From: Polaromonas sp. CG_9.7
GTDB lineage: Bacteria > Pseudomonadota > Gammaproteobacteria > Burkholderiales > Burkholderiaceae_C
DNA: 64,000 nt
Direction: 5' to 3'
Assembly (NCBI RefSeq): GCF_015752205.1
Contig: NZ_JADOVG010000002.1
Coordinates: 186,001 to 250,000, forward strand
Made by a program: the position numbers and the translations under genes. The notes beneath the pieces are model-generated. The model saw only the letters and a program-made list of their open reading frames with translations. It was not told the DNA's origin and made no database searches. Below, piece by piece: positions 6,803 through 59,825 of this stretch. How positions within the stretch are numbered: position 1 is the stretch's first letter; each line of letters starts with the position of its first letter.

Positions 6803-6866
6803 TTATATAAAAAGTGCTTTTTGCGCTTATCTGGCGTGCATAAGGTGCTATTTATTCAATAGCAAT
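6803..6866 (+). repeat. Dispersed palindromic element, copy 1 (intergenic)
   Basis: The core TTGCGCTTATCTGGCGTGC is followed by ATAAGGTGCTAT and the tail ATTCAATAGC, the same order as in the other copies. It is closest to the copy at 59762-59825 read on the minus strand. It lies between the mgtC start and the thioesterase end, and its tail runs to the stop codon of the latter. Confidence 0.75.
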
Positions 6867-7321
6867 CAAGGCTTGGCGATCTTTTGCGGTTTGCCGGCGT
6901 CGTCAATCGCCACGTAGGTCAGGCTGGCTTCGGTGACCTTGTAATAACGGCCCTGCGCCCGGAAACCTTCGGCAAACACCTCGACCTGCACCGTGATCGA
7001 GGTGTTGCCGATGCGCGTCACGGTGGCAAAGAACGACAAGATGTCGCCAACCCGCACCGGCTGCTTGAAGATGAACTGGTTGACGGCCACTGTTGCCATG
7101 CGGCCATCGACATAGCGTGCCGGCAGCACCGCGCCCGCCAGGTCCACTTGCGCCATCACCCAGCCGCCAAAAATGTCGCCGTTGGCATTGCAGTCGCGCG
7201 GCATGGGAATGACCTTGAGCACCAGTTCCTTGTCGGTCGGCAACTGGCCGTGCAGGGCGCGGGTTTCCCGGTCGAGGGTGGCCGCGGTATTGGCCGGCAG
7301 AGCGCTTGATTCGAGGGACAT
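6866..7321 (-). CDS. Acyl-CoA thioesterase, YciA/BACH-type hotdog
   Basis: The 151-residue single-hotdog protein hydrolyses acyl-CoA by family. The motif KVIPMPRDCNANGDIFGGWV near residues 35-55 carries the N-x-x-G-D-I-F-G-G catalytic loop of YciA-like enzymes, and TVAVNQFIFKQPVRVGD follows. The start could be GTG 7327 or ATG 7321; the ATG is taken because the sequence just before it has no better ribosome site. It is divergent from the Atm1-like exporter, 47 bp apart. A dispersed palindrome meets its stop codon. Confidence 0.87.
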   Translation of the reverse strand: MSLESSALPANTAATLDRETRALHGQLPTDKELVLKVIPMPRDCNANGDIFGGWVMAQVDLAGAVLPARYVDGRMATVAVNQFIFKQPVRVGDILSFFATVTRIGNTSITVQVEVFAEGFRAQGRYYKVTEASLTYVAIDDAGKPQKIAKP

Positions 7322-7368
7322 AGGCACAATCTCTGAGGTTTGAAAAATGACTCCAATGATTGTGACTT

Positions 7369-9234
7369 ATGCGCTCCCGAGCTTCCACTGCTGATTCCTA
7401 TCCGGCGCCAGCCGTGGCGACCCCGGGCGCCATGGCCGCGCCCACGCTTGTGCGTTCCGACTGGGCAACGCTGAAAAGGCTTTTTCCCTACCTGTGGGAA
7501 TACAAGTGGCGCGCCATGGCCGCGCTGGCCTTCATGGTCGGCGCCAAGCTGGCCAATGTCGGCGTGCCGCTGCTGCTCAAAGACCTGGTCGATACCCTGA
7601 GTCTCAAGCCTGGCGACGTGCAGGCCGTGCTGGTTGTGCCGATTGCCTTGCTGCTGGCGTACGGACTGCTGCGGCTGTCGACCACGCTGTTCACCGAACT
7701 GCGCGAACTGGTGTTTGCCAAGGCCACCGAAGGCGCGGCGCGGCGCATTTCGCTCGAAGTGTTCCGGCACCTGCATGCGCTCAGCCTGCGCTTTCATCTG
7801 GAGCGGCAAACCGGCGGCATGACACGCGACATCGAGCGCGGCACACGCGGCGTGCATTCGCTGATCTCGTATTCGCTCTACAGCATCATCCCGACGCTGA
7901 TCGAGGTGACGCTGGTGCTCAGCCTGCTGGCGGTCAAGTTCGATGTCTGGTTTGCCGGCATCACCCTGATTGCGCTGGTGTTCTACATCACCTTCACCGT
8001 GCTGGTGACCAACTGGCGCACGCAGTTTCGCAAGACCATGAACGAGCTGGATTCGATGGCCAGCAGCCGTGCCATGGACTCGCTCCTGAATTACGAAACC
8101 GTCAAGTATTTCAACAACGAAGAGTTCGAAGCCAGGCGCTACGACGAAAACCTGGTGCGCTACCGCGCCGCCGCCATCACCAGCCAGCGCACGCTGAGCA
8201 TGCTCAACGCCGGCCAGCAGCTGATCATTGCGTTTGGCCTGGTGGCGATGCTCTGGCGCGCCACGCAGGGCGTGGTCGATGGCCGCATGACGCTGGGCGA
8301 CCTGGTGATGGTCAACGCCTTCATGATCCAGCTCTACATTCCGCTGGGTTTCCTGGGCGTGATTTACCGCGAGATCAAGCAAAGCCTGACCGATCTGGAA
8401 AAGATGTTCACGCTGATGGAGCGCGAACGTGAAATTGCCGACGAGCCGGGCGCGCAGCCGCTGCACATAGAGGCCACACCGGCCGTGCGGTTTGAAAACG
8501 TCAGCTTCGCCTACAGCCCGGCGCGGCCGATTTTGCACAACGTGAGCTTTGAAATTCCGCCCGGCAAGACCGTGGCCGTGGTCGGGTCGTCAGGTGCCGG
8601 CAAGTCCACGCTGGCGCGGCTGCTGTACCGCTTTTACGACGTGCAGCAGGGCTGCATCACGATTGCCGGCCAGGACATCAAGCAGGTCACGCAGGCCAGC
8701 GTGCGCCAGGCGATCGGCATCGTGCCGCAGGACACGGTGCTGTTCAACGACACGGTCGAATACAACATCGCCTATGGCAAACCCGGCGCGACGCACGAAG
8801 AGGTCGAGCAAGCCGCCAGGGCTGCGCGCATCCACGATTTCATCGTCTCGACGCCGACGGGCTACCAGACGATGGTCGGCGAGCGCGGCCTGAAGCTGTC
8901 GGGCGGTGAAAAGCAGCGCGTGGCGATTGCCCGCACGCTGCTGAAAAACCCGCCGGTGGTGATTTTTGACGAGGCCACGTCAGCGCTGGACTCGGCCAAC
9001 GAGCGCGCCATCCAGAGTGAATTGCGCACCGCCGCGCAGAACAAGACCACGCTGGTGATTGCACACCGGCTGTCCACTGTGGTCGATGCGCATGAAATCC
9101 TGGTGATGGATGCCGGCCGCATCGTCGAGCGAGGCAGCCACACCGCCTTGCTGACAGCGAATGGCCGATATGCCGACATGTGGGCCATGCAGCAGCAGGC
9201 CAGCGAACGAATTCTGGATGAAATCGGCGTCTAG
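7369..9234 (+). CDS. ABC exporter of the Atm1/HMT heavy-metal and Fe-S related type
   Basis: A 621-residue half-transporter with an N-terminal six-helix membrane domain (about residues 40-340) and a C-terminal ATPase. The TMD has the Atm1 hallmark NYETVKYFNNEEFEARRY. The ATPase has Walker A GSSGAGKST near residue 405, signature LSGGEKQRVAI near 509 and Walker B VVIFDEATSALD. Mitochondrial Atm1 and bacterial relatives export glutathione-linked sulfur or metal species; that substrate is inferred here. It acts as a homodimer in the inner membrane. It is followed by a LysR gene transcribed the same way after 118 bp. Confidence 0.88.
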   Translation: MRSRASTADSYPAPAVATPGAMAAPTLVRSDWATLKRLFPYLWEYKWRAMAALAFMVGAKLANVGVPLLLKDLVDTLSLKPGDVQAVLVVPIALLLAYGLLRLSTTLFTELRELVFAKATEGAARRISLEVFRHLHALSLRFHLERQTGGMTRDIERGTRGVHSLISYSLYSIIPTLIEVTLVLSLLAVKFDVWFAGITLIALVFYITFTVLVTNWRTQFRKTMNELDSMASSRAMDSLLNYETVKYFNNEEFEARRYDENLVRYRAAAITSQRTLSMLNAGQQLIIAFGLVAMLWRATQGVVDGRMTLGDLVMVNAFMIQLYIPLGFLGVIYREIKQSLTDLEKMFTLMEREREIADEPGAQPLHIEATPAVRFENVSFAYSPARPILHNVSFEIPPGKTVAVVGSSGAGKSTLARLLYRFYDVQQGCITIAGQDIKQVTQASVRQAIGIVPQDTVLFNDTVEYNIAYGKPGATHEEVEQAARAARIHDFIVSTPTGYQTMVGERGLKLSGGEKQRVAIARTLLKNPPVVIFDEATSALDSANERAIQSELRTAAQNKTTLVIAHRLSTVVDAHEILVMDAGRIVERGSHTALLTANGRYADMWAMQQQASERILDEIGV

Positions 9235-9352
9235 CGATTTAACGACGGGCATATTCAGCTATCAAAATATGATTCAATGAGCGCCGGCCCATTGTTGCTT
9301 TTGACGGTGCAATGCACGCCGCCTGCACAGTTTCCCGCCGCATAATCCGGGC

Positions 9353-10333
9353 ATGGAAACCAAATGGCTGGAAGATTTTGTCTCGCTCGCTGAAACCCGC
9401 AGCTTCAGCCGGTCCGCGCAACTGCGGCATGTCACGCAGCCGGCTTTTTCGCGGCGCATCCAGGCGCTCGAAGCCTGGGCCGGCACTGATTTGGTGGACC
9501 GAAGCTCTTACCCGACACGGCTGACGCCGGCCGGCAAGACGCTTTACAACCAGTCGCTGGAAATGCTGCAGGGCCTGCAGTCCACCCGGGCCATGCTGCG
9601 TGGCCACACGGCGGCAGGCCAGGACTTCATCGAGTTTGCCGTGCCGCACACGCTGGCTTTCACCTTCTTTCCCGCGTGGGTCAGCAGCCTGCGCGACAAG
9701 TTCGGCCCGATCAAAAGCCGGCTGATTGCGCTCAACGTGCATGACGCAGTGCTGCGGCTGACCGAAGGCAATTGCGACCTCCTGATTTCCTACCATCATG
9801 ACTCACAGCCCATCCAGTTAAACGCCGATCGCTACGAGATGGTGCTGCTGGGTCAGGAAGTGCTGGCGCCGTTTTGTCGGGCCAACGCCGATGGCACGCC
9901 CGAATTCCGGCTTCCCGGAAACGCCGGCCAGCCCTTGCCTTACCTGGGTTATGCGCCTGGAGCGTATCTGGGACACATGGTGGAACTGGTCCTCAAGCAG
10001 TCAGGCGTCCCCATCCATCTCGACCGGGTGTACGAGACCGACATGGCCGAGGGGCTGAAAGCCATGGCGCTGGAAGGGCATGGCGTGGCATTTCTCCCCC
10101 TCAGCGCCGTGAGAAAAGAGCTTCGTTCCCGCAAACTGGTCCGTGCCGGCGCGGGCCTTGAAATGACCATGGAGGTCCGGGTCTACCGTGAACGCCCGAA
10201 CGCGCGGAATGCTGCCAAACGCCACGCCCAGGATTTGTGGATTTATTTGCAGTCGCAGGCCGATAGCAAGGGCAATGCAGTTGGCCTGGGCGTCTTGACG
10301 GCGCCCGCCAAGCCCTTGCCCGCAATTAGGTAA
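9353..10333 (+). CDS. LysR-type regulator related to HypT (YjiE)
   Basis: A 326-residue LysR protein. The helix-turn-helix is at the very N-terminus (ETKWLEDFVSLAETRSFSRS, then TQPAFSRRIQALE). The opening ETKWLxDF and the lack of the usual long linker match E. coli HypT, a hypochlorite-responsive activator. HypT senses oxidants through methionines; whether that holds here is not known. The ligand-binding domain occupies residues 95-300. The gene lies 401 bp upstream of gltI in the same orientation, so control of the glutamate transporter is possible but not shown. A second protein of this subtype is at 30921. Confidence 0.82.
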   Translation: METKWLEDFVSLAETRSFSRSAQLRHVTQPAFSRRIQALEAWAGTDLVDRSSYPTRLTPAGKTLYNQSLEMLQGLQSTRAMLRGHTAAGQDFIEFAVPHTLAFTFFPAWVSSLRDKFGPIKSRLIALNVHDAVLRLTEGNCDLLISYHHDSQPIQLNADRYEMVLLGQEVLAPFCRANADGTPEFRLPGNAGQPLPYLGYAPGAYLGHMVELVLKQSGVPIHLDRVYETDMAEGLKAMALEGHGVAFLPLSAVRKELRSRKLVRAGAGLEMTMEVRVYRERPNARNAAKRHAQDLWIYLQSQADSKGNAVGLGVLTAPAKPLPAIR

Positions 10334-10669
10334 CAACCCGGGGGTGTTATAACTATTTTGCATAGTTTTTCGCACAAATAGCATTTGCGGTTTCGGAACA
10401 GTAAAATTACAGTCCGTTACGCTCGATTTTTGATGCGATTCATCACCCGAGAATGGTCATACTCTTTGTCTTTTTATCAACAAGAGATTTTTTGGAGATG
10501 AGATTTTTTTCAAAGCGCCACCCGATGCGCAGTTGGGGCATCAAAAAGTGAACGGCACAAAGATTGCTTTCGAGAAAGAGATGCTTGCAAGTCCGGTTTT
10601 AAAGCTGGAAAGCAGGTATTTGCAGGCGATGCCCGGGTGGTAGGGTCATGTTGCCAGAGCGGGTAAACC
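10334..10669. other. Non-coding stretch upstream of gltI
   Basis: No credible gene, repeat or RNA is seen. It is less GC-rich than its neighbours, with several T-runs near 10490-10510, consistent with a leader or regulatory region. The promoter proposed for gltI is at its right end. Confidence 0.4.
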
Positions 10670-10699: not shown

Positions 10700-10734
10700 A
10701 TAGTTTTTCCAATTGTTTCATCACAGGAGATTTC

Positions 10735-11634: not shown

Positions 11635-11656
11635 TACTGGACTTCAAGGTCAAAAG

Positions 11657-14667: not shown

Positions 14668-14729
14668 TAAAAAGGCATTTTGCGCTTGCTGTGTCTGCGC
14701 AAGCAGCTATAAATTCAGGAGTAAAAATC
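14668..14729 (+). repeat. Dispersed palindromic element, copy 2 (intergenic)
   Basis: TTGCGCTTGCTG and TGCGCAAGCAGCTAT form the arms, with a four-base loop between and the tail AAATTCAGGAGT. It starts about 40 bp after the rnk stop and lies between two convergent genes. Confidence 0.8.
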
Positions 14730-18915: not shown

Positions 18916-19715
18916 GCGCAGTGCCCGAAGAAAAGACTCTTTTTCCCCCTCTCACGCCTCTGTCCGAAAAAGCACTGCCTGCCATCAACTGGCATTCCGG
19001 CTGGTTCGACGGCTGGCGAGCCAGTGGTCAGGCGGTGCAGTCAAAAATCTTGTTGGGCACCACGATGGCGGAGGCCCTCAACGCACAAGGCGATGCGCCT
19101 GTTCGCTTTCTGCCGCAATCCGGATTGCCAACCGGCATGGCTTATGAGCAGTTCATTTTCGAACAAGGCAATGTGCCGACCCGCGACAACCTGCACGATT
19201 TTTTCAATGGCTTGTGCTGGATGCGCTTTCCAGCCACCAAGGCCCGGCTGAACCAACTCCAGGCCGCTGAAATCGCCGTTGCCGGGGTCAAGCCATTGCG
19301 CGGCCCGGTGCGCGATGCGTTGACGGTGTTTGATGAAAACGCCGCTTTCCTTCTGGCGCCGCCGCTGCTGTGGGAGGCGTTGAATGCGCGCGACTGGCGG
19401 CGGCTGTTCGTTGAGCTGCGGCCGCTGTGGAAAGAAGCGCAGCTGGTGCTTTTCGGCCATGCGCTGCTGGAAAAACTGGTTTTTCCAAGAAAACAGGTCA
19501 CAGCGCACGTCTATCAAGCGCAACCAGCTATTGATTCAGTAGCGGAACTGGACGCCTGGATGGCCGCTGATTTGAGCGCCGCCAAGCTCGCCGGCAAGCC
19601 GTTCACGCCCTTGCCGGTGCTCGGCGTGCCCGGCTGGTGGCCCGGAAATGAGGACTTTTCCTTCTATGATGACGCTTCGGTTTTTCGTCCGCCCCGCCCG
19701 GAGAAAAAATTATAA
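18912..19715 (+). CDS. DUF3025 family protein
   Basis: A 267-residue cytosolic protein of unknown function starting [14 protein letters not shown]. Recognisable family stretches are [20 protein letters not shown] near residues 95-115, [15 protein letters not shown] and [14 protein letters not shown] at the C-terminus. The start overlaps the pyrC stop (ATGA), so it is coupled to pyrC, a common pairing in this order. Bases 19511-19545, about residues 200-211, look like half of a dispersed palindrome read through in frame. No catalytic motif is recognised. Confidence 0.8.
19511..19545 (+). repeat. Dispersed palindromic element, partial copy 3 (inside DUF3025 gene)
   Basis: Only the right half is evident: TATCAAGCGCAACCAGCTAT followed by TGATTCAGTAGC, which matches the right arm and tail of other copies. 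It encodes part of the protein without a stop. The left arm is not convincing, so this may be a relic or chance. Confidence 0.45.
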
Positions 19716-20776: not shown

Positions 20777-20802
20777 AAGGCCGGCTCAATGCCGGCCTTT
20801 TT
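20777..20802. terminator. Bidirectional terminator between htpX and proQ
   Basis: AAGGCCGGC pairs with GCCGGCCTT around TCAAT, and T-runs flank it on both strands, so it can end both convergent transcripts. Its right end touches the proQ stop codon. Confidence 0.85.
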
Positions 20803-21713
20803 CATGGCGCCGTGTCGGCCTTCGCTGTCGATTGCTCGGGCGATGCTTCCGGCACAATTTCAGCCTCGGTTTCTGCTTCTGCTTCTGCTTCTGCTTCTGC
20901 TTCTGCTTCTGCTTCTGCTTCTGCTTCTGCTTCTGCTTCTGCTTCTGCTTCTGCGGCCGCTGAAACTTCCTGCGCCTTGGCAAGAGCCGCTGCCTGGTCG
21001 GCACGAGCCCATTGCACTGTGCGGCCTACCTCGTCCGGATTCATGCCGTACATGTCCGAAAACTCGGCCACTGTCTTGCCGCTGGCTTCAAACATCCTGA
21101 GCAGCGCATCACGCTTGGCGGCGTGTTCGGCCAGTTCGGCAAAGACGTCGTCGAGCAATGACGTGGATACCTCGTCCTGCTGGCGGATGCACAGCAAATA
21201 GCTTTCCCGGCTCAGGCCGGATGCGTGGATCGCCTCGATCAGTTGCGCGCGTGCATAAGGCCGCAAGTCCTGGTTTGAGCGCGCCTGGCGCCTGCGGAAC
21301 ACTTCCATGATGGCGTGGTGGACATGTTCCGGGGCCACTGGCTCCACTGGTTCGCCGTTCAGGTCGTGGCGCTGCAGGCCGGACGCCACGCTTTCCAGGT
21401 AGCGGGTGGAGCGCGCATGCAAGCCGAGCGCAACTTTCAGCTCGTCCCGCTTGAACATTTCAGGGTGAAGCGCCAGCAAGTCCTGGAACACGCCAAGCTT
21501 GAGCGGAAGGAACTGTCCGCCGAACATTTTTGGGTACAGGTCGAACAGCTGCCGCAGTGCCGGATGCACCTCGCGCGGCGCGCGCGCTGGGGGCTTGGCT
21601 TGCGTCCGGCCGCGTCCGCCTTGCCGGCCCTGGCGTGGCGGGGACGCCGTTGTCGCGTCCTCGGGGGCAGGCGATGCATCGGTTTCGGCAGGTATTGGTA
21701 AGGTTTCGGTCAT
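20802..21713 (-). CDS. ProQ/FinO-domain RNA chaperone with Ala-Glu repeat tail
   Basis: RNA-binding protein of 303 residues. The FinO/ProQ domain lies at about residues 48-165: HPALRQLFDLYPKMFGG, PLKLGVFQDLLALHP and YLESVASGLQRHDLNGEPV. A basic, proline- and glycine-rich N-terminus (residues 20-47) precedes it. The middle part, RESYLLCIRQQDEV and VAEFSDMYGMNPDEVGRTVQWA, is helical. The C-terminal third is an Ala-Glu repeat encoded by 13 perfect hexamers, giving a highly acidic tail. ProQ proteins stabilise small RNAs and 3' ends; which RNAs is unknown. This is not the E. coli layout, which has a C-terminal Tudor-like domain. Confidence 0.85.
   Translation of the reverse strand: MTETLPIPAETDASPAPEDATTASPPRQGRQGGRGRTQAKPPARAPREVHPALRQLFDLYPKMFGGQFLPLKLGVFQDLLALHPEMFKRDELKVALGLHARSTRYLESVASGLQRHDLNGEPVEPVAPEHVHHAIMEVFRRRQARSNQDLRPYARAQLIEAIHASGLSRESYLLCIRQQDEVSTSLLDDVFAELAEHAAKRDALLRMFEASGKTVAEFSDMYGMNPDEVGRTVQWARADQAAALAKAQEVSAAAEAEAEAEAEAEAEAEAEAEAEAEAEAETEAEIVPEASPEQSTAKADTAP
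20875..20952. repeat. Perfect hexanucleotide tandem repeat, 13 copies of GCTTCT
   Basis: Thirteen uninterrupted GCTTCT units on the plus strand, with a partial unit on the left. They encode alternating Glu and Ala on the minus strand within the proQ-like gene. As the unit is 6 bp, slippage changes length by two residues and never shifts the frame. Confidence 0.97.
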
Positions 21714-23650: not shown

Positions 23651-23716
23651 TATTTTTATATAAAAATGGCTGCTGGCGCTTGCTGGATAAGCGCAAGCAG
23701 CTATTTTATTAATAGC
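23651..23716 (+). repeat. Dispersed palindromic element, copy 4 (intergenic, best-conserved)
   Basis: GCTGCTGGCGCTT and AAGCGCAAGCAGC form the arms around GCTGGAT-like loop bases, with the tail ATTTTATTAATAGC. The left flank TATATAAAAAT is shared with copy 1. It lies between the FAD oxidoreductase start and the cysteine synthase end and can fold into a stable hairpin. Confidence 0.85.
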
Positions 23717-23753
23717 AAAAAAATGCCGCGCTCTGACTGCAACAGCGCCAGCG

Positions 23754-24733: not shown

Positions 24734-25061
24734 GTGAAGCCTGCCAGACCGCCGCTGGTGCAATTTCCGAAAGGAAGCACTGGAGGAACGTCCGGACTGC
24801 TCAGGACAGCGTAGGAGGTAATACCTCTCCACCGTGAGGTGAGGATCAGAGCAACAGAGACGAGCCGATTCAGTTCGGGTGAAACGGGCAATCTCTACGC
24901 GCAGCAACACCAAATAGGCCAGCGTTGACGTGGTTCCGCGGAGCTGGCGGGTAGGTGGCACCGAGCCGGGCAGGCGACTCCCGGCCCAGATTAATGGCGG
25001 TCACACCGGATCATCGCAATGTGATCCGGCGCACAGAATCCGGCTTATCGGCAGACTTCAC
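24734..25061 (+). ncRNA. rnpB: RNase P RNA (bacterial class A)
   Basis: Catalytic RNA of about 328 nt that cuts 5' leaders from pre-tRNAs. Helix P1 pairs GTGAAGCCTGCC at 24734 with GGCAGACTTCAC at 25050-25061. The conserved 5' P4 strand GGAGGAACGTCCGGACT is at 24782, its 3' partner CACAGAATCCGGCTTATC is at 25032, and AGAGCAACAGAGA near 24849 lies in the conserved specificity region. The hairpin CCGGATCA/TGATCCGG is also visible. CATAAT at 24722-24727 is a likely -10 element. Short open frames crossing this region are not genes. Confidence 0.95.
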
Positions 25062-25094
25062 ACTTTATTTTCCGCACCAGACGCCGCTTGGCGC

Positions 25095-27759: not shown

Positions 27760-29394
27760 TTAGTCAACGCGCCGGAGCGCATCGATGCGGTCCACATGCG
27801 CCTGCAGCGAGCGCAGCGCGATGGGCCACAGGCGCGGGTCGGTGTCGTCATAGGCCAGCGCCACCCAGTCATCCATCGAGCCTTCAGGCAGGGCTTGCAT
27901 CGCCGATGCCACCTTGGCTTCGCGCTTCAGGCGGTGCGCCCTGAGCTGGGCAATCGCCTGCGGTGCCTCGCCCAGCACATGGCCGTGCGCCGGCAATATG
28001 AAGTCGATCTGGTGCGCGTCGCAGGCATCGGTGAGCTGATCCAGCGAGTCGAGGTAGGCGTTCATCTCGCCATCCGGCGGGTTGATGATGGTCGTGCTGC
28101 CGTTCAATATGTGGTCGCCCGAAAACAGCAGACCGTCTTCGACCAGCACCAGGCACACGTGGTTGGCTGCATGGCCGGGCGTAAATATGACCTTCAAAGT
28201 GTGACTTTGCGCTTGATGGGTAAGCTTTATCAGCTCCTGATTCAATAGCGACCGGTCAGGCGCGAAACAGGCGTCGGCGCGTGCGGTGTCGGCGGAAGGC
28301 AGTCCCAGAATCGGCGGGCGGTGGGCGCACAGCGCCTGAAGCGGCCGCGCGCCCGGTGAATGGTCGGGGTGTGAATGCGTGCAGACGATCGCCTCGATGC
28401 GCCCGCCGGTCGCTTCAAACAGGCGCTGGATGTGCAAGGCATCGTTCGGCCCCGGGTCGATCACGATGTAGCCCGTGTCCGCCGTGCCGACGATGTAGCT
28501 GTTGGTGCCGGGGCCCGTCATCATGCCGGGGTTGGGCGCGGTCAGGCGCATGACGTTTTTCAGCAGCGGCACCGGGCGCTCGCATTGCCAGTCGAGCGAA
28601 TGCACGCGTTGGCCGTCAGGCGATGTCAGCGCCAGTTCGCCGTAGGGCGAGTCGTGCTCCATATAGCGCGCATCCTGGCCGCCGAGCAGGCCGGCGCGGG
28701 GGCAGGAAATCCACAGTGGCTTTTCGTGCGCGCAGGCGCTCAGCACCGCCTCGACACTGGCGTACTTCGCCAGGCGCTCCAGCGTGCGCAATGTTGGAAA
28801 AATCATGAAGAACGTGCCGGCTTCATGGCGTGCCAGTGCATCGGCCGGGCGGACCCAGCTGGGCTCGAACTGCTCGGTTTCATCGGCCACCGGCGTCTGG
28901 CCTTCGGGCATGCGGGCGACCAGGAAGGGCACGTCGAAACGGCGCGGCAAATCGCGGTCGGTGACCCAGTGGGCCAGGGTGAAGACGTCCTCGCCCGCCA
29001 GCATGAGGCCGCGTTCCTTGCACTGCACTGCAAACGGCGCCATGCGGTCCATGGCGGCAATGGCTTCGGTGGCGACATGGCTACCGTCGGCATGGCGCGC
29101 CAGCAGCACGCCAAGTTCCTCGAAGCTTTCGCGGATGGCGGCAACGGCCTGGGTCAGCTGCAGGTCGGACTGGCTGGACCGGCGCGTGGACTGCGCATGC
29201 GCTGCCGCGTCGGCCGTGTCGATGCAGCCGCCCGGGAAAACGTAGGCGCCGGGCGCAAAGCTGGCCGTCATGGCGCGCCGGGTCATCAGCACTTCAATGC
29301 CTTGCGGCGTGTCGCGCAGCAGCAGCACGGTAGCGGCGGGACGCAGGGGCGCGGGGTCGCGCTGCAGGTAAAGGAGTTGAGTGGGTCGGACCAT
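27760..29394 (-). CDS. NUDIX / metallo-beta-lactamase fusion hydrolase
   Basis: A 544-residue protein with two enzyme domains. The N-terminal part (about residues 1-260) is a NUDIX fold: AATVLLLRD, AYVFPGGCID and RESFEELGV, which fits the REUxEExGU core, with a long insert before it as in NUDT19-like proteins. The C-terminal part is a metallo-beta-lactamase with THSHPDHSPG (metal site, near residue 340), TPGHAANHVCLVLVEDGLLFSGDHI and LPAHGHVLGE, of the LACTB2-like group. Start ATG 29394 is taken because the longer frame adds an unlike extension. Bases 28200-28254 match the dispersed palindrome and encode about residues 380-398. Confidence 0.85.
   Translation of the reverse strand: MVRPTQLLYLQRDPAPLRPAATVLLLRDTPQGIEVLMTRRAMTASFAPGAYVFPGGCIDTADAAAHAQSTRRSSQSDLQLTQAVAAIRESFEELGVLLARHADGSHVATEAIAAMDRMAPFAVQCKERGLMLAGEDVFTLAHWVTDRDLPRRFDVPFLVARMPEGQTPVADETEQFEPSWVRPADALARHEAGTFFMIFPTLRTLERLAKYASVEAVLSACAHEKPLWISCPRAGLLGGQDARYMEHDSPYGELALTSPDGQRVHSLDWQCERPVPLLKNVMRLTAPNPGMMTGPGTNSYIVGTADTGYIVIDPGPNDALHIQRLFEATGGRIEAIVCTHSHPDHSPGARPLQALCAHRPPILGLPSADTARADACFAPDRSLLNQELIKLTHQAQSHTLKVIFTPGHAANHVCLVLVEDGLLFSGDHILNGSTTIINPPDGEMNAYLDSLDQLTDACDAHQIDFILPAHGHVLGEAPQAIAQLRAHRLKREAKVASAMQALPEGSMDDWVALAYDDTDPRLWPIALRSLQAHVDRIDALRRVD
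28200..28254 (+). repeat. Dispersed palindromic element, copy 5 (inside NUDIX/MBL gene)
   Basis: TGACTTTGCGCTTGATGGGTAAGC is the left half in pieces (TTGCGCTTGATGGGTAAGC), and CAGCTCCTGATTCAATAGC is the right arm and tail. It lies in antisense orientation within the metallo-beta-lactamase domain, and the coding frame stays open through it. Confidence 0.7.
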
Positions 29395-31871: not shown

Positions 31872-31971
31872 GCTTTCACGCTGATCTGGGCATTGCCGGT
31901 GTGTTGGTGCAATGCCACGAAGCGGGTTTTCATGACGCTGTGATCGACAGGCCGCAGGGATAATCGTGCCC

Positions 31972-32850
31972 ATGCGAATCCGATTTACCAAAATGCAGGG
32001 CGCGGGCAATGACTTCGTGATGCTCGACGAAACCCGGGGCTCCCTGAACCTGACCGCCGCACATTACCGCTTCCTGGCCGACCGCCACTTTGGCGTCGGC
32101 GCTGACCAGATATTGACGGTGCGGCCCTCGCCGGGCGAAAACATCGACTTTGAATACGTCATTCACAACGCCGATGGCGGCGAGGTCGAGCAATGCGGCA
32201 ACGGCGCGCGCTGCTTTGTGCGCTTTGTACGCGAGCAGGGCTTGACCGAGAAAAACGCGGTCAAGGTCAAGACCTTGGGCGGCATCATCGAGCCGCGCAT
32301 GCAGCCCGATGGCCGCGTCACGGTCAACATGGGCGCGCCGGTGTTTGAGCTGGCGCGCATCCCTTTCAACCCCGCCGGCTTGGCGTCCGAAACCACTGGT
32401 TCATGGCAGAAATGGCCTCTGGCGCTTGATGGGTGGGTGCAGACAGCTCCTGTTTTGATAGCGGTTGTGTCGATGGGAAATCCCCATGCGGTGCAACTGG
32501 TGGACGACGTGGACAGCGCCCCGGTCGCGCAAACAGGCCCGCTGGTCGAGCACCACCCGGCTTTTCCCAAGCGCGTGAACGCCGGCTTCATGCAGGTCGT
32601 CACGCGCAGCCAGATTCGCCTGCGCGTTTACGAGCGCGGCGCTGGCGAGACACTGGCTTGCGGCACCGGCGCCTGCGCCGCGGTGGTGGCGGGCATCCGG
32701 CTGGGCCTGCTCGACGCGCGCGTCGATGTGCTGATGCGCGGTGGCGCGCTGACGATTGAATGGACGGGCGCGCTGGATGCGCCTGTGATGATGACCGGAC
32801 CGGCAACGACCGTTTTCGAAGCCGAGATCGACGTTCCCGACAGGCTGTGA
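31972..32850 (+). CDS. dapF: Diaminopimelate epimerase
   Basis: Converts LL- to meso-diaminopimelate, needed for lysine and for the peptidoglycan subunit added by MurE. The 292-residue enzyme opens [20 protein letters not shown] and has both catalytic cysteines, in [10 protein letters not shown] and [31 protein letters not shown] is also diagnostic. ATG 31972 is chosen over GTG 31966. A dispersed palindrome-like stretch at 32406-32464 encodes about residues 145-164 without disrupting either catalytic half. It begins a dapF-DUF484-xerC-rlmI run. Confidence 0.95.
32406..32464 (+). repeat. Dispersed palindromic element, copy 6 (inside dapF)
   Basis: AAATGGCCTCTGGCGCTTG is nearly the left arm of copy 8 (AAATCGGCCTCTGGCGC), and CAGCTCCTGTTTTGATAGC is the right arm and tail also seen, with small changes, in copies 5 and 9. 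It is read through in frame between the two DapF domains. Confidence 0.75.
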
Positions 32851-34707: not shown

Positions 34708-35898
34708 ATGAACATTATTCGATTGAAAGACGGCAAGGAACGCTCCCTGCTGCGCCGCCATCCCTGGATTTTTTCAGGGGCGATCGCCAGCGGCGACGGC
34801 GGGTCCGGCGAAACCGTGCGCATTGAAAGCCATGCCGGCCAGTTCCTCGGCTGGGCTGCGTTCAGCCCGACGTCGAAGATTCGCGCCCGGGTCTGGAGCT
34901 TCAACGAGGCGCAGCCCATCGACGCTTCGTTTTTCATAGCGCGCATCGACCAATCAATAAGCGCAAGAAGCCTTTTTGACATCAAAAGCGACGGCCTGCG
35001 GCTGATTCACGGCGAATCCGATGGCCTGCCAGGGCTGGTTGTGGACCGCTACGGCGACACGCTGGTCGCGCAATTTTCCAGCTGCGGCACGGAGAAATGG
35101 AAGCAAGTCATCGTTGACGCCTTGCTGGCGCAAACTGGCTTGACGCGGCTCTACGAACGCTCTGACGCCAGCGTGCGTTCGCTAGAAGGCCTGCCCGAAG
35201 CCACCGGCTGGCTCGCCGGATCGGGCGCCACTGGCATCGTCATCACCGAACACGACTGGAAACTGAGCCTGGACGTGGCCGAAGGCCACAAGACCGGCTT
35301 TTACCTCGACCAGCGCGACAGCCGCCAGAAGTTTGCCGTCTATGCGCGCCGGCTCGGGTTCAAGGACGTGCTGAACTGCTACTGCTACACCGGCGGCTTC
35401 ACCGTGGCGGCGCTGGCAGGCGGCGCGCAACACGTCACGTCGATCGACTCGTCCGGCCCGGCCATAGAGCGCGCAAAAGCCAACGTCGCGTTGAACGGGT
35501 TTGACGCCAGCCGCACCACCCTGCTGGACGCCGACGTGAACGCCATGCTGCGCCAGTATGTCAAAGACGGCCGGACTTTCGACGCCATCGTGCTCGACCC
35601 GCCCAAGTTCGCGCCGACGGTCACGCACGCCGAGCGCGCCGCGCGCGCCTACAAGGACATCAACCGGCTGGCGTTGTCGATTTTGGCGCCCGGCGGCGTG
35701 CTGTTCACCTATTCCTGCTCGGGCGGCATCAGCGCCGACCTGTTCCACAAGATCGTCGCCTCGGCCGGCACCGACGCCGGCGTGGACGCCTTCATCTGCG
35801 AACGCATGGGAGGCGCGCCTGACCACCCGATGACGGTGGCGTTTCCGGAAGGCGAATACCTCAAGGGGTTGGTGCTGGTCAAACGGCCGTCAAACTAG
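34708..35898 (+). CDS. rlmI: 23S rRNA m5C1962 methyltransferase, RlmI family
   Basis: The 396-residue SAM-dependent methyltransferase has an N-terminal PUA domain (LKDGKERSLLRRHPWIFSGAI) and a Rossmann methyltransferase domain. Markers are GFYLDQRDSR, VLNCYCYTGGFTVAALAGGA for the SAM site, DAIVLDPPKFAP for the catalytic DPPxF motif, and YSCSGGISADLF. E. coli RlmI has 396 residues. Start ATG 34708 matches that length; the longer frame overlaps xerC. Bases 34930-34976 resemble the dispersed palindrome and encode about residues 74-89 in the linker between domains. Confidence 0.92.
   Translation: MNIIRLKDGKERSLLRRHPWIFSGAIASGDGGSGETVRIESHAGQFLGWAAFSPTSKIRARVWSFNEAQPIDASFFIARIDQSISARSLFDIKSDGLRLIHGESDGLPGLVVDRYGDTLVAQFSSCGTEKWKQVIVDALLAQTGLTRLYERSDASVRSLEGLPEATGWLAGSGATGIVITEHDWKLSLDVAEGHKTGFYLDQRDSRQKFAVYARRLGFKDVLNCYCYTGGFTVAALAGGAQHVTSIDSSGPAIERAKANVALNGFDASRTTLLDADVNAMLRQYVKDGRTFDAIVLDPPKFAPTVTHAERAARAYKDINRLALSILAPGGVLFTYSCSGGISADLFHKIVASAGTDAGVDAFICERMGGAPDHPMTVAFPEGEYLKGLVLVKRPSN
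34930..34976 (-). repeat. Dispersed palindromic element, copy 7 (inside rlmI)
   Basis: Read on the minus strand: AAAAAGGCTTCTTGCGCTTA, then TTGATTGGTCGATGCGC and GCTATGAAAAA. The left part equals that of copy 2, and the right arm is shorter. The frame of rlmI stays open. Confidence 0.55.
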
Positions 35899-35908: not shown

Positions 35909-35968
35909 TCAAATCGGCCTCTGGCGCAGACTGGATAAGCGCAGGTTGCTATATAAATCAAAGTAATC
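35909..35968 (+). repeat. Dispersed palindromic element, copy 8 (intergenic)
   Basis: AAATCGGCCTCTGGCGC and GGATAAGCGCAGGTTGCTAT are separated by AGACT, with the tail ATAAATCAAAGTAAT. It begins 11 bp after the rlmI stop. GCGCAGACTGGATAAGCGCA is almost identical to the core of copy 9 in murG. Confidence 0.8.
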
Positions 35969-51086: not shown

Positions 51087-52165
51087 ACCCTCAGCGCTGT
51101 GCTTTGATCATGGCCGGCGGAACCGGCGGCCATATTTTTCCCGGCCTGGCCGTGGCGGAGGCCTTGCGCGCGGGTGGCTGGCGCGTGCACTGGCTGGGCG
51201 GCAAGGGCAGCGCAGAGCGCCCCAGCATGGAAAGCCAGTTGGTACCGCCGCGTGGCTTTGCCTTTGAGTCGATTGATTTCTCGGGCGTTCGTGGCAAGGG
51301 GCTGTTAACGTTGGCCTTCCTGCCGCTGCGCCTGCTCAAGGCTTTCTGGCAAAGCGTACAGGTCATTCGCCACGTCAAGCCTGATGTAGTGGTCGGTCTG
51401 GGCGGCTACATCGCCTTTCCGGCCGGCATGATGAGCGTGCTGCTGGGCAAGCCGCTCATCCTGCACGAACAAAATTCCGTGGCCGGCCTGGTCAACAAAC
51501 TGCTGGCCCGCGTCGCCGACCGCGTTTTTACTGCTTTTCCACTTGTGCTGAAAAATGCCGAATGGGTGGGCAATCCGCTTCGGCCAGCTTTTACCCTGCA
51601 GCCAGATCCGACGGTGCGCTTTGCGCAGCGAAGCGGGCCGCTCAAGGTGCTGGTGGTGGGCGGCAGTCTGGGCGCGACGGCGCTGAACGAACTTGTTCCC
51701 AAGGCGCTTGCCCTGATTCCAGCGGCGCTGCGTCCCTGCGTCACACACCAAAGCGGTGCTCGCCAGCTTGAAGCGTTGCGCGCCAATTACCTGGCTGCCG
51801 GCGTGGGTGCCGAACTCACGCCTTTCATCAACGACACGGCCCAGGCCTTTGCCGATGCGGACCTGATCATCTGCCGCGCCGGCGCCAGCACGGTGACCGA
51901 AATTGCCGCTGTCGGTGCTGCGGCGCTGTTTGTTCCCTTTCCGTCTGCCGTAGATGACCACCAGACCGCCAATGCCAAATTTCTTGTTACACAAGGCGGT
52001 GGCTGGCTGGTGCAACAACATGACCTGACCCCCGAAAAACTTGCGATAATGCTACAAAAAACAGAGCGCTTTGCGCTTGTCCAGTCTGCGCTAAAAGCCA
52101 AAAACATGCAAAAAACAGATGCCACCGCCCATCTTGTCGCCGCTTGCGAGGAACTTGCGCGATGA
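51083..52165 (+). CDS. murG: Lipid I GlcNAc transferase MurG
   Basis: Transfers GlcNAc to lipid I to make lipid II on the inner face of the membrane. The 360-residue GT28 enzyme has [32 protein letters not shown] and [14 protein letters not shown] in the N-terminal domain, and [16 protein letters not shown] and [25 protein letters not shown] in the donor domain. ATG 51083 overlaps the ftsW stop. The C-terminal 20 residues or so (about 321-341) are encoded by a dispersed palindrome-like sequence, in a region that is variable among MurG proteins. Confidence 0.95.
52045..52106 (-). repeat. Dispersed palindromic element, copy 9 (inside murG)
   Basis: Read on the minus strand: TTTTTGGCTTTTAGCGCAGA, then CTGGACAAGCGCAAAGCGCT, then CTGTTTTTTGTAGCA. 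The core GCGCAGACTGGACAAGCGCA differs from copy 8 by one base, and the tail is like that of copy 6. The murG frame is open through it. Confidence 0.7.
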
Positions 52166-55372: not shown

Positions 55373-55376
55373 ATGA

Positions 55377-56606
55377 ATGGCCAAAGAATATAAAGATCTG
55401 GTGGTGGGGCTGGACATCGGAACGAGCAAGATCATGGTCGTGGTGGCCGAGGTCATGCCCGGCGGCCAGCTCAAGCTGGCCGGTCTGGGCATTGCCGCCA
55501 GCCAGGGACTCAAGCGCGGCGTGGTGGTCAACATCGACGCCACCGTGCACAGCATCCAGCAGGCATTGAAAGAGGCCGAACTTATGGCCGACTGCAAGAT
55601 TGGCCGGGTCTTCACCGGCATCACCGGCAGCCACATCCGCGGCATCAATTCCAGCGGCATGGTGGCCGTGAAGGACAAGGAAGTGACCCAGGCCGATGTC
55701 ACCCGGGTGATTGAAACCGCCAAGGCCATCAACATCTCCACCGACCAGCGCCTGCTGCTGGTCGAGCCGCAGGAATTCGTGATCGACGGCCAGGATGTGC
55801 GCGAGCCCATCGGCATGAGCGGTCTGCGCCTGGAGGCCAAGGTCCACATCGTGACGGGCGCACAAAGCGCTGCCGAGAACATCATCAAATGCGTGCGGCG
55901 CTGCGGCCTTGACGTCGACCAGTTGATGCTCAATCCGCTGGCGTCCAGCCTGTCGGTGCTGACGCAGGACGAGCAGGAACTGGGCGTGGCCATGGTCGAC
56001 ATTGGCGCGGGCACCACCGACGTCGCCATCTTCACCGGCGGCGCCATACGGCACACCGCCGTGATTCCGATTGGCGGCGACCTGATCACCAGCGACATCG
56101 CCATGGCACTGCGCACGCCAACCAAGGACGCCGAGGACATCAAGGTGGAAAACGGCTGCGCCAAGCAGTTGCTTGCCGACCCCGATACCCAGGTCGAGGT
56201 GCCCGGCCTGGGCGACCGCGCCTCGCGCATGCTCAGCAAGCAAGCGCTCGCCGGCGTGATCGAGCCGCGCGTCGAGGAAATCTACCTGCTGGTCCAGCAG
56301 GCGATCCGCGAGTCAGGCTACGAGGAAGTGCTGTCCTCGGGCATTGTCATCACCGGCGGCAGCGCCATGATGCCCGGCATGATCGAGCTGGGCGAAGATA
56401 TTTTCCTCAAGCCGGTACGGCGCGGTCTGCCGCGCTATTCCGGTGCTTTGTCCGACATGGTCGCCCAGACCCGTGCCGCGACCGTCATGGGGCTGCTCGA
56501 AGAAGCCCGGCTGGCGCGCATGCGCGGCTTCAAGGTGTCGCAAAAGGCCGGCAGCGTGCACAGCGCCTTTGGCCGCGTCAAAGACTGGTTTGTGGGGAAT
56601 TTTTGA
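55377..56606 (+). CDS. ftsA: Cell division protein FtsA
   Basis: Actin-like ATPase that ties FtsZ filaments to the membrane. The 409-residue protein opens MAKEYKDLVVGLDIGTSKIMVVVAEV (phosphate 1 motif), has the 1C domain near residues 85-165, VDIGAGTTDVAIF (phosphate 2) and ITGGSAMMPGMIELGEDIF (adenosine motif). The C-terminal amphipathic membrane-targeting helix is seen at FGRVKDWFVGNF. It begins 4 bp after the ftsQ stop. The gap to ftsZ is 142 bp and may hold an ftsZ promoter. Confidence 0.96.
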   Translation: MAKEYKDLVVGLDIGTSKIMVVVAEVMPGGQLKLAGLGIAASQGLKRGVVVNIDATVHSIQQALKEAELMADCKIGRVFTGITGSHIRGINSSGMVAVKDKEVTQADVTRVIETAKAINISTDQRLLLVEPQEFVIDGQDVREPIGMSGLRLEAKVHIVTGAQSAAENIIKCVRRCGLDVDQLMLNPLASSLSVLTQDEQELGVAMVDIGAGTTDVAIFTGGAIRHTAVIPIGGDLITSDIAMALRTPTKDAEDIKVENGCAKQLLADPDTQVEVPGLGDRASRMLSKQALAGVIEPRVEEIYLLVQQAIRESGYEEVLSSGIVITGGSAMMPGMIELGEDIFLKPVRRGLPRYSGALSDMVAQTRAATVMGLLEEARLARMRGFKVSQKAGSVHSAFGRVKDWFVGNF

Positions 56607-56748
56607 TGACCCGTCTGTCCAGATTTTTCGGCCGTCCCTGGCGCCGAACCCATTCGGGAGGCGCTGATCCACCGGCCTGACCCGCCATGTTTCGCAAAAA
56701 ATTTGACATGTATTCACCCACCTTATTTACCCCAACAGGAGGCTCCCC

Positions 56749-57927
56749 ATGAGTATCGAAATGATTGAAATCACTGAATTTAACCAAGGCACGCAGATCA
56801 AGGTGATTGGCGTCGGCGGCGGTGGCGGCAATGCCGTCGGCCACATGATCCAGTGCGGCGTGCAGGGCGTTGAATTCATCTGCGCCAACACCGACGCGCA
56901 AGCGCTTAACCGCGGCACCGCGCACAAGAACATCCAGCTGGGCGCCAGCGGACTTGGCGCCGGCAGCAAGCCTGAAAAAGGCCGCGAAGCCGCCGAACTC
57001 GCCGTGGACGACATCCGCGATGCCATCAGCGGTGCGCACATGCTGTTCATCACCGCTGGCATGGGCGGCGGCACTGGCACGGGTGCAGCGCCCGTGATCG
57101 CCCGCGTGGCCAAAGAAATGGGCATTCTGACGGTCGGCGTCGTGACCAAGCCCTTCGACTTCGAGGGGGGCCGGCGCATGACCAATGCCGACCTCGGCCT
57201 GGCCGAGCTGGAGGCCAATGTCGATTCGCTGATTGTCGTGCTGAATGAAAAGCTGCTTGAAGTGCTGGGCGACGACGTGACGCAGGACGAAGCCTTTGCG
57301 CATGCCAACGACGTGCTGAAAAACGCTGTTGGTGGCATTGCCGAGATCATCAATGTTCCCGGCCACGTCAACGTCGACTTCGAGGATGTGCGCACCGTGA
57401 TGGGCGAGCCCGGCAAGGCGATGATGGGAACGGCCCGGGCCAACGGCCCCGACCGCGCCCGCATCGCTGCCGAGCAGGCCGTGGCCTGCCCACTGCTCGA
57501 AGGCATCGACCTGTCGGGCGCCAAGGGCGTGCTGGTGCTGATTTCGGCCGCCAAGGGCTCGCTCAAGCTGAACGAGTCCAAGCTGGCCATGAACACCGTG
57601 CGCGCCTACGCTTCGCCCGATGCGCATGTCATCTACGGCACTGCCTACGACGACGAGCTGGGTGATGACATCCGCGTCACCGTGGTGGCGACCGGCCTGA
57701 GCCGCCAGGAAGTGCGCAGCAATGTTGCGCCGTTGCAGGTGCTGCGTGGTGCCGGCCAGAATGCGGGCGGCCCGCAGGGTCTGAAGCAGCCCGACTACGG
57801 CAACATGGCCGTTCCCAGCGTGTGGCGCACCAACCGCACACAGGCGGCGGCCAAAGTCGATGCGCTGGCATCTGGGGGCATGGACGACTTCGAGATTCCT
57901 GCCTTCTTGCGCCGTCAGGCAGACTGA
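56749..57927 (+). CDS. ftsZ: Cell division protein FtsZ
   Basis: Tubulin-like GTPase that forms the Z ring. The 392-residue protein has GVGGGGGNAVGHMI, the tubulin signature GGGTGTGAAPVIA and the T7 loop NVDFEDVRTVM with catalytic aspartates. The C-terminal conserved peptide DDFEIPAFLRRQAD, which binds FtsA and MinC, is intact after a variable linker of about 60 residues. It starts at ATG 56749 behind AGGAGG, the best ribosome site in the cluster, in keeping with its high abundance. Confidence 0.97.
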   Translation: MSIEMIEITEFNQGTQIKVIGVGGGGGNAVGHMIQCGVQGVEFICANTDAQALNRGTAHKNIQLGASGLGAGSKPEKGREAAELAVDDIRDAISGAHMLFITAGMGGGTGTGAAPVIARVAKEMGILTVGVVTKPFDFEGGRRMTNADLGLAELEANVDSLIVVLNEKLLEVLGDDVTQDEAFAHANDVLKNAVGGIAEIINVPGHVNVDFEDVRTVMGEPGKAMMGTARANGPDRARIAAEQAVACPLLEGIDLSGAKGVLVLISAAKGSLKLNESKLAMNTVRAYASPDAHVIYGTAYDDELGDDIRVTVVATGLSRQEVRSNVAPLQVLRGAGQNAGGPQGLKQPDYGNMAVPSVWRTNRTQAAAKVDALASGGMDDFEIPAFLRRQAD

Positions 57928-58078
57928 TCCTGCCTGTAACTGTACCGGCCTGCCACGGCGACAGGCCGGCACCGCATGGCCTGCTTTATGGCGTGCCATG
58001 CCTGCTGCACGCCAGCATGCCGTGTGGGCTTGACGGGCTCCGCCATGGCGCTGCGTGCCTGGCAATTTAAAATAAGAC

Positions 58079-59002
58079 ATGCTCGCTCAAAGAACCCTCA
58101 AATCACTGACCCGGGCGGTCGGCGTCGGGCTGCACAGCGGCCAGCGGGTCGAGTTGACCCTGCGGCCGGCACCACCCGACAGCGGCATCGTGTTCCGGCG
58201 TGTTGACCTGCCGCAACCGGTGGACATCGCCATCTCGCCCGAAGCCGTCACCGACACCCGGCTGGCGTCGACTATTTCCAGCGGTAGCGCCAAGGTGCTG
58301 ACGGTCGAGCACCTGATGTCGGCCTGCGCCGGGCTGGGCATTGACAACCTGGTCATCGACATCACTGCCGAGGAGGTGCCGATCCTGGACGGCTCGGCGT
58401 CGTCGTTTGTATTCCTGCTGCAATCCGCCGGCATTGCCTTGCAGCCGGCGCCCAAGCGCTTCGTGCGCATCCTCAAGCCGGTCGAGGTCCGCGAAGGCGA
58501 GGGTCCAAATGTGAAATGGGCGCGGCTGAGTCCCTATGAAGGCTACAAACTGAGCTTCGAGATCGACTTTGACCACCCGGCTGTCGATTCGACCGGTCAG
58601 CGCGTCGAGTTCGACATGGGCAGCGGCGCCTACAGCCGCGACATTGCCCGCGCGCGCACCTTCGGTTTCACCAAGGATGTCGAGATGATGCGGGCCAACG
58701 GCCTGGCGCTGGGGGGTGGGCTCGACAATGCCATCGTCATGGACGACTACAAGGTTTTGAACAGCGAAGGGCTACGCTACAACGACGAATTCGTCAAGCA
58801 CAAGATCCTCGACGCCATGGGTGACCTGTACTTGCTGGGCAAGCCGCTGCTGGCCGCCTACAGCGCTTTTCGCTCGGGCCATGCCATGAACAACAAGCTG
58901 CTGCGCGAGTTGCTGGCGCAGCCTGAAGCCTATGAAATCGTCACGTTTGACGACGAAAAAAGCGCACCCAAGGGTTTTGCCACCCTGGCGCGGGCCTGGT
59001 AA
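58079..59002 (+). CDS. lpxC: UDP-3-O-acyl-GlcNAc deacetylase LpxC
   Basis: Zinc amidase for the committed step of lipid A synthesis. The 307-residue protein (E. coli 305) has [17 protein letters not shown], the zinc histidine in [31 protein letters not shown], and the second zinc site [16 protein letters not shown] with the histidine and aspartate. [13 protein letters not shown] holds the general acid histidine. It lies 151 bp after ftsZ; the gap carries a GC-rich hairpin (57945-57969) with no T-run. Confidence 0.97.
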
Positions 59003-59035
59003 GGCCGTGTCGCGCGAACGGCAGGAAGCCTGATC

Positions 59036-59212
59036 ATGGTGGTGTTCCGTTTGATGATTTTGCTGGCGCTGCTGGCTTCTGCCGTGTCATTTGTGCTGTA
59101 CGCCATCACCTCACAAGTGCGGTTTCGGCGTCAGGGGCTGAACATCCTGAAATGGACCCTTGTTGCCGCTTTCGGATTTTTTGCGGTGCTTATCATGGAT
59201 CGGGTCGGTTAG
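59036..59212 (+). CDS. Small conserved-looking two-helix membrane protein downstream of lpxC
   Basis: A 58-residue frame starting MVVFRLMILLALLASAVSFVLY, with a second hydrophobic segment near WTLVAAFGFFAVLIMD. A basic loop (SQVRFRRQG) lies between, so both ends probably face the periplasm or both the cytoplasm. It follows lpxC by 33 bp with GGCAGGAAG upstream. Small proteins of this layout follow lpxC in other beta-proteobacteria as I recall them. It was too short for the ORF list. No function is known. It converges on ruvC with only 4 bp between. Confidence 0.65.
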   Translation: MVVFRLMILLALLASAVSFVLYAITSQVRFRRQGLNILKWTLVAAFGFFAVLIMDRVG

Positions 59213-59216
59213 CCGG

Positions 59217-59765
59217 TCAGCGGCTGCGTCCGGCGCGGTAATGGCCGCCCATCTTGCCGCTGGCTTCACTGGCCTGCGCCAGCCGCGCCATTGCCGCACC
59301 CACATGCGCATGCGTGATGGCCAGCCCCAGGGCGTCGGCGGCATCCTTGCCCGGCAGCGACGGCAGCTTCAAGAGGCGCATGACCATTTCCTGGACTTCC
59401 GCCTTGCCGGCCTTGCCGTAGCCGGCGACGGCCTTTTTCATCTGCAGCGCGGTGTATTCGGCCACCGGCAGGTCGCTTGACACCAGCGCCGTGATGCATG
59501 CGCCGCGTGCCTGGCCCAGCAGCAGCGTGGCCTGCGGGTTGACGTTCACAAACACAATCTCGACCGACGCGGATTCGGGCTGATAGCGCTGCACCACCTC
59601 GCGAACGCCGTCGAACAGCACCTTCAGCCGGCCCGGCAAGTCCTTTTTGTCCAGGTGCGCGGTCTTGATGGTGCCGCTGGCGATGTAGCGCAGGTGCGGG
59701 CCGTCCATGTCCACCACGCCAAAGCCCGTGATCAACAAACCCGGATCGATTCCCAATATATGCAT
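59217..59765 (-). CDS. ruvC: Holliday junction endonuclease RuvC
   Basis: Cuts Holliday junctions in recombination, acting as a dimer with RuvAB. The 182-residue protein (E. coli 173) opens [19 protein letters not shown] with the first catalytic aspartate, has the glutamate in [10 protein letters not shown] and the two aspartates in [16 protein letters not shown]. All four catalytic residues are present. The start ATG directly follows the tail of a dispersed palindrome. ruvA and ruvB are not in the window. Confidence 0.96.
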
Positions 59766-59825
59766 TGCTATGATTAAAGTAGCTGCTTATGCAGGCTGGT
59801 ATTGCGCAAAGGCAAGAAATGACTC
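59762..59825 (-). repeat. Dispersed palindromic element, copy 10 (upstream of ruvC)
   Basis: Read on the minus strand: CCTTTGCGCAATACCAGCCT, then GCATAAGCAGCTACTTTAAT and CATAGCA, ending at the ruvC start codon. It matches copy 1 through core, right arm and tail. It must be part of the ruvC leader. Confidence 0.75.

Follow-up and report, generated by a model that had tools for sequence, protein, structure and literature searches.

A dispersed family of two-dyad sites in Polaromonas and other Comamonadaceae, between and inside genes, that may be kept through protein binding

A 64-kb window of the Polaromonas sp. CG_9.7 genome (64,000 nucleotides, contig NZ_JADOVG010000002.1, positions 186,001 to 250,000) carries 12 copies of a single family of palindromic sequences, six of them within genes. 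The copies in genes leave most of the proteins at the length found in a noncarrier relative, stand out at the DNA level from synonymous recodings of the same codons, and follow the abundance of the family from genome to genome. We interpret the copies as double-stranded sites of ~70 bp that may well be kept through the binding of a putative chromosomal protein, a reading to which we give slightly less than an even chance.

One family of two-dyad sites

The original prediction, made from the letters of the window, named ten positions, and a copy is present at each of them; it did not list the two further copies, at 3563 and 9221. The plan it described, with a GCGC arm, TGG in many loops, GCGCAAGCAGCTAT, and an ATAGC tail, was borne out, as was the use of both strands (9 plus, 3 minus). 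The copy it placed at 19511 is real, but its description as partial was wrong, since the copy spans its full length, 19490-19544. With a profile derived from the seven clearest copies, which match by construction, 11 nonoverlapping copies were found in the window at 15.8 to 50.3 bits, compared to 10.2 bits for the best of 40 dinucleotide-preserving shuffles; the four nonseed copies (52050, 34923, 59766, and 19490) scored 15.8 to 25.6 bits. The remaining copy, a decayed one at 9221-9275 on the plus strand, scored 8.2 bits in this first scan and 24 bits with a later profile, and it was recognized via its stronger orthologues, of which that of Polaromonas glacialis scores 45 bits.

A profile search of the whole CG_9.7 genome returned at least 150 significant matches, all with E values of <1e−8. 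The 378.5-kb contig that holds the window has 57 copies by hidden Markov model (HMM) and 61 by a profile of intergenic copies at 20 bits, while reversed sequences gave no HMM matches. The predicted dense, single dispersed family is indeed present at about one copy per 6 kb, which suggests ~670 copies in the 4.15-Mb genome if the density is uniform.

After 38 copies from the window and the rest of the genome were trimmed to equal length, 55 columns aligned without gaps, and the conserved span runs from about position −11 to +59, giving a site of roughly 70 bp. Each site contains a pair of dyads, TTGCGC-N11-GCGCAA and GCTAT-N7-ATAGC, whose centers lie a constant 23 bp apart, along with an A/T-rich edge; information content is ~51 bits per site over the 55-bp core. 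The exact GCTAT-N7-ATAGC dyad occurs at 23 places in the 378.5-kb contig (both strands counted), every one inside a copy. At all other spacings from 3 to 12, the same dyad occurs there once (spacing 6), outside the copies, and in 240 kb of Polaromonas JS666 the exact dyad does not occur. Neither GTAG/CTAC (39 of 177 copies, within their outermost 8 bases) nor CGTC/GACG (anywhere in 25 of 177) forms a constant tag. Among the same 177 copies, strong covariation is restricted to neighboring columns, with columns 1 to 4 strongly linked; this left edge is mostly an A tract (AAAA in 76 copies, AAAT in 46) or a T tract (TTTT in 17).

Palindromes of this kind could act as RNA or DNA hairpins, either as transcription terminators or as mRNA stabilizers. 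Their placement near 3′ ends, described below, would suit such a role, and of six copies folded, one folds much better than its shuffles and one marginally so (14 of 200 shuffles were as good). The other four, however, fold no better than shuffles, arm-to-arm covariation did not exceed that of shuffles in 38 copies and was missing from the strongest column pairs in 177, and copies in genes lie in both orientations (8 sense and 5 antisense of 13). Hairpins are, in our judgment, a very improbable explanation.

The copies in the window are listed below.

3563-3617, plus strand: copy in a PolyA_pol/CCA-type nucleotidyltransferase gene (2609-3895, minus strand), antisense
6810-6864, plus strand: copy, intergenic
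9221-9275, plus strand: decayed copy, mostly in the spacer past the open reading frame (ORF) 7369-9234, with stronger orthologues in P. glacialis and genomes G042 and G033
14669-14723, plus strand: copy between convergent genes
19490-19544, plus strand: copy within a DUF3025 gene (18921-19715, plus strand), sense
23663-23717, plus strand: copy, the top-scoring profile match of the genome; spacer exceeds those of three copy-free relatives by 131 to 133 bp
28196-28250, plus strand: copy within a metallo-beta-lactamase-fold gene (27760-29394, minus strand), antisense
32409-32463, plus strand: copy within dapF (31966-32850, plus strand), sense; position common to 24 of 80 genomes
34923-34977, minus strand: copy within a YccW/RlmI-like methyltransferase gene (34708-35898, plus strand), antisense
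35911-35965, plus strand: copy directly past the stop codon of the YccW/RlmI-like methyltransferase gene
52050-52104, minus strand: copy within murG (51104-52165, plus strand), antisense
59766-59820, minus strand: copy immediately upstream of ruvC (59217-59765, minus strand)

At the Rfam gathering threshold, the window gave a single match, RNase P RNA (RF00010) at 24736-25063, and none for the repeat, which was thus not identified as a known RNA family. A TTCTGC-type repeat array lies at 20856-20955, inside the ORF 20802-21713 (minus strand).

Copies inside genes

The original prediction made no mention of the in-gene position of six of the 12 window copies. Polaromonas JS666, whose orthologues of the six window genes lack the copy, served as the noncarrier reference for protein length. 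Five of the six genes align with JS666 without gaps at the copy site, and these copies thus do not look like insertions; the sixth protein, with the metallo-beta-lactamase fold, is 5 residues shorter than its JS666 orthologue at the site. The murG segment is 39 residues long in all 23 genomes aligned (in 2 further genomes the segment was not covered), and PDB chains 3s2u and 7d1i have 1 to 2 residues more. For the methyltransferase, the segment is free of gaps in the relatives compared, and that of PDB 3c0k is longer by 2 residues. In dapF, the segment measures 31 residues in all 24 genomes with the copy; of the 56 that lack it, 30 share this length and the others have 27 to 35 residues. The dapF gene of a Rhodoferax metagenome-assembled genome (MAG) has an in-frame stop exactly at the repeat site.

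At the DNA level, a profile made from 59 intergenic copies alone scored 14 in-gene copies of the CG_9.7 genome at 27 to 56 bits, compared to maxima of 4.0 bits in the syntenic JS666 sequence (240 kb) and 12.2 bits in the reversed CG_9.7 contig. Copies score as whole units, and intermediate scores are few. Each site was also compared to synonymous recodings drawn with local codon usage (500 trials for the CG_9.7 copies and for dapF, 400 for murG and the methyltransferase gene). All 13 in-gene CG_9.7 copies tested and all 24 dapF sites with a copy outscored every recoding, while the other 56 dapF genes had a mean z of 0.26, with a few weak remnants of up to z 4.7. Every recoding was likewise outscored in 18 of 23 genomes for murG and in 15 of 53 for the methyltransferase gene. 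The five murG sites that failed were those of JS666, G005, G022, G057, and Comamonas testosteroni; two of these genomes, G005 and C. testosteroni, are carriers of the family.

The dapF copy occupies one position in the 24 genomes that have it, CG_9.7 included, and scores fall into two groups, at least 22 bits in 23 of 80 loci and below 12 bits in the other 57. The dapF score follows genome copy number, itself counted up to a ceiling of 150 (Spearman 0.88, 19 genomes), and has no link with GC. Only where a copy exists, third-position identity at informative columns is 0.67 to 0.76, compared to 0.54 to 0.57 in the flanks, and in GC-rich genes the GC content of third codon positions drops from 0.74 to 0.84 to 0.40 to 0.52 at copies. 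Selection may be the cause of these patterns, a point that we infer, as we do that the family is old.

Distribution across genomes and along the chromosome

Matches were counted in 19 named genomes, each scored to at most 150 matches. P. glacialis, Acidovorax NO-1, and Acidovorax 210-6 have at least 150 each, followed by Acidovorax MR-S7 (149), Polaromonas AER18D-145 (144), Simplicispira psychrophila (123), Paracidovorax wautersii (107), C. testosteroni (66), Polaromonas YR568 (58), a Polaromonas MAG (30), Variovorax J22R193 (12), JS666 (2), Paracidovorax konjaci (1), and Paracidovorax oryzae (1). Limnohabitans WS1, Hylemonella, a Hydrogenophaga MAG, Variovorax boronicumulans, and Delftia PS-11 have none. 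In P. glacialis R3-9, 127 copies were found in 800 kb sampled. Across the GTDB family, counted with a stricter filter and the best 28 matches per genome, matches are present in 60 of 200 genomes (CG_9.7 included) and 43 of 126 genera, a patchy yet wide distribution. The statement in the original prediction that relatives hold similar repeats was sound, as the family is found in Polaromonas, Acidovorax, and other Comamonadaceae. The prediction had also named identical orthologous sites in all relatives as evidence that would refute it; this applies only in part, as sites are common to carriers of the family but absent from noncarriers. A search of open-licence papers found no published report of the family.

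Placement was assessed for 125 copies, 61 on the CG_9.7 contig and 64 in a syntenic P. glacialis stretch, with genes called by a simple codon-usage gene caller. Most copies are intergenic (98 of 125), and 27 lie in genes. The 89 copies placed in spacers were sorted by the orientation of the flanking genes. Convergent spacers hold 35 of these, compared to 9.3 expected, and divergent spacers only 8 (20.8 expected); tandem spacers hold 46 (58.9 expected), with 32 of the 46 closer to the upstream 3′ end (22.8 expected). Copies are more evenly spaced than under uniform placement, with coefficients of variation of 0.73 in CG_9.7 (P = 0.005) and 0.64 in P. glacialis (0 of 1,000 draws) compared to 0.98. 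With randomly chosen spacers as the reference, P was 0.088 for CG_9.7 and 0.007 for P. glacialis. Of the 100 P. glacialis matches listed (from at least 150), 4 fall outside the main contig, a 4.14-Mb sequence that makes up 78% of that genome. Among the 96 listed copies on it, 64 are oriented with the leading strand according to GC skew, an excess that could reflect gene orientation, and the bias is weak in the sampled P. glacialis stretches (76 of 127, P = 0.03).

Evidence for and against insertion and copying

A REP-like (repetitive extragenic palindromic) or MITE-like (miniature inverted-repeat transposable element) family would have spread by insertion between genes via a transposase, with older copies kept or decayed. 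The mostly intergenic placement at 3′ ends and convergent junctions is typical of REPs and their REP-associated tyrosine transposases (RAYTs); extracts of PMC3733652 describe REPs as many dispersed palindromes close to 3′ ends and in convergent spacers, with some in genes, and the family resembles them in each respect. REPs are 20 to 40 bp long, whereas the family is ~70 bp with two dyads. Six Comamonadaceae genera were sought in the main text of PMC3733652, and it names none of them. The family further differs in lacking a constant GTAG/CGTC tag at its ends, in lacking arm covariation, in adding no length to genes compared with JS666 in five of six cases, and in showing no RAYT amid its copies or cognate RAYT flanked by the repeat.

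The original prediction had suggested mobilization in trans, but a REP-type transposase finds no backing. The one match to PF01797 (Y1/RAYT-like) in the CG_9.7 genome has no copy in the surrounding 3.3 kb, and Y1/RAYT-like genes are present in 19 of 20 genomes irrespective of copies. Scanning 20 loci from 26 Y1 matches gave a best match of >20 bits in 2, taking the best per locus only. A partnership with RAYT/Y1 genes was thus set aside for lack of any sign in a search that covered PF01797. Sixteen of the 20 genomes have a single Y1/RAYT-like match, as if the gene were domesticated.

Insertion draws its best support from spacers. The spacer of the 23663 copy is 245 bp long, compared to 112, 114, and 113 bp in three relatives without the copy (~132 bp extra), and this copy looks like a clear recent gain with extra DNA. 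Compared with nine copy-bearing CG_9.7 spacers, the JS666 spacer is shorter in four cases (by 84, 87, 120, and 153 bp), longer in another four, and of the same length in the remaining one. Together, the 23663 gain and the four shorter JS666 spacers indicate that intergenic copies can bring extra DNA. Nevertheless, no target duplication was seen at 23663, the one gain examined, where divergence blurs the ends, and no clean empty site with a duplication was found, the intergenic flanks being too diverged. No single mechanism tested explains both extra DNA at intergenic copies and its absence at gene copies.

Likeness among copies is mixed evidence for transposition. The whole-unit scores fit it, and P. 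glacialis has a truly close pair, matched by none of 300 column shuffles. However, the closest pair on the 378.5-kb CG_9.7 contig was reached by 38 of 300 column shuffles (4 of 300 when 102 CG_9.7 copies were used). Spread and nearest-neighbor identity exceed column shuffles in all three sets (for the CG_9.7 contig, 0.072 versus 0.060 and 0.689 versus 0.671, respectively), an excess that unequal decay or some copying could give. A single consensus query matched one of 72,556 plasmids, a Comamonas plasmid, and none of 50,697 phages, although the variability of the motif limits the reach of such a query. Nineteen viral contigs were matched by an exact pattern, and a copy is present in the examined part of 15 of them. 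On balance, we regard a REP-like or MITE-like element as unlikely and as a less good reading than protein-bound sites.

Copying could also proceed without function, through short-patch templated recombination, in which short single strands of one copy overwrite partly similar sequence elsewhere and so maintain the likeness of the family. No account of this mechanism was found in the open-licence papers searched. It would explain overwriting without a change in length and the copying of whole units, and the loops of the murG copy and the intergenic 35911 copy are largely the same. In an ungapped comparison of CG_9.7 with P. glacialis, however, 12 orthologous intergenic sites had an identity of 0.72 over the copy, 0.50 in the loop, 0.40 in the left flank, and 0.65 in the right flank, compared to 0.59 for random cross-species copies. 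Since loops diverge faster than the whole element and orthologues are more alike than random copies, conversion is not frequent, and we think it highly improbable that short-patch recombination accounts for the family.

Comparison with uptake signals and other repeats

Biased DNA uptake in natural transformation could spread a motif by substitution in tolerant places, genes included. Extracts of PMC1939737 describe Haemophilus and Neisseria uptake motifs (uptake signal sequences and DNA uptake sequences) with features that the family shares, namely gene sites without insertion, a noncoding excess, and even spacing. The rarity of P. glacialis matches off the main contig also fits uptake. ComEC is encoded in all 20 genomes, but for that reason it does not separate genomes with the family from those without. 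According to the same extracts, the known motifs have cores of 9 to 10 bp, extended to 29 and 16 bp by weaker edges, are not palindromes, and have no orientation bias. The family is far longer (a 55-bp core of ~51 bits in a ~70-bp site), has two dyads, and shows some strand bias, including the 64 of 96 listed P. glacialis copies; the few intermediate scores also speak against uptake. An uptake signal seems to us quite improbable.

Two other repeat families share the placement of copies inside genes. Rickettsia palindromic elements lie, according to extracts of PMC10969869, inside unrelated genes and are common to related species, as in the family described here. Theirs are in-frame insertions, whereas the family shows no gain in length compared with JS666, and no in-frame insertion lengthening the protein was identified. 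The betaproteobacterial repeat BRE is likewise dispersed and mostly intergenic with some copies in genes, but extracts of PMC3110155 give it a length of ~90 bp, a GC content of 69% in Bordetella, frequent tandem arrangement, and 29 copies in Polaromonas JS666. JS666 has two matches to the family, and 240 kb of its sequence never exceeded 4.0 bits. By these descriptions, the family differs from a GC-rich repeat abundant in JS666.

Weighing protein-bound sites

Several observations weigh against protein-bound sites as the explanation. The binder remains putative. C. testosteroni carries the family and lacks the murG signal. Genomes "with copy" in the third-position test were chosen by score, which builds in part of the contrast, and related genomes are not independent, so that shared ancestry inflates the contrasts. 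At nine in-gene sites orthologous between CG_9.7 and P. glacialis, copy identity (0.84) is not above that of the flanks (0.86 and 0.84). Compared with PDB homologues, the CCA-type protein has 8 additional residues at its site, and DapF has 4 to 5 within the site and 5 to 7 just before it; these lengths are smaller than the 55-bp unit, and some ancient gain in length is possible in those two proteins. The ~51 bits per site far exceed the ~14 bits estimated to be needed for finding a site, which fits template copying as well as binding. Finally, the extra DNA at 23663 and in four of the JS666 comparisons counts on the same side, and the shuffle statistics, including the excess likeness in all three sets, together with the copies on viral contigs, speak slightly for copying.

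If the sites are nevertheless bound by a protein, they would form one family recurring at intervals of about 6 kb, in genes as well as between them, with some positions common to several genera. Two dyads beside an A/T-rich edge would be suited to a pair of adjacent protein dimers. The enrichment of copies at 3′ ends and convergent junctions, their even spacing, and their rarity off the P. glacialis main contig suggest that the putative protein may mark the ends of transcription units or organize the chromosome. Once the protein was lost from a lineage, its sites would decay, those in genes returning to ordinary synonymous codons. A bolder form of this proposal is a chromosome-wide address system of the Comamonadaceae, in which a putative dimeric protein would read ~600 to 700 evenly spaced two-dyad sites of 70 bp per genome and selection would have prevailed over codon usage and altered stretches of core genes such as dapF and murG one codon at a time, while protein length stayed unchanged. 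We consider this fuller version doubtful.

Palindromes dispersed through a genome tend to be classed as selfish repeats. The copies in core genes, which show no change in protein length, beat synonymous recodings, and track the family across genera, instead point to a trans-acting factor at hundreds of sites. The family would offer a testable case of DNA-level selection that overrides codon usage in core genes and may provide a handle for finding a new chromosome-organizing or DNA-uptake protein.

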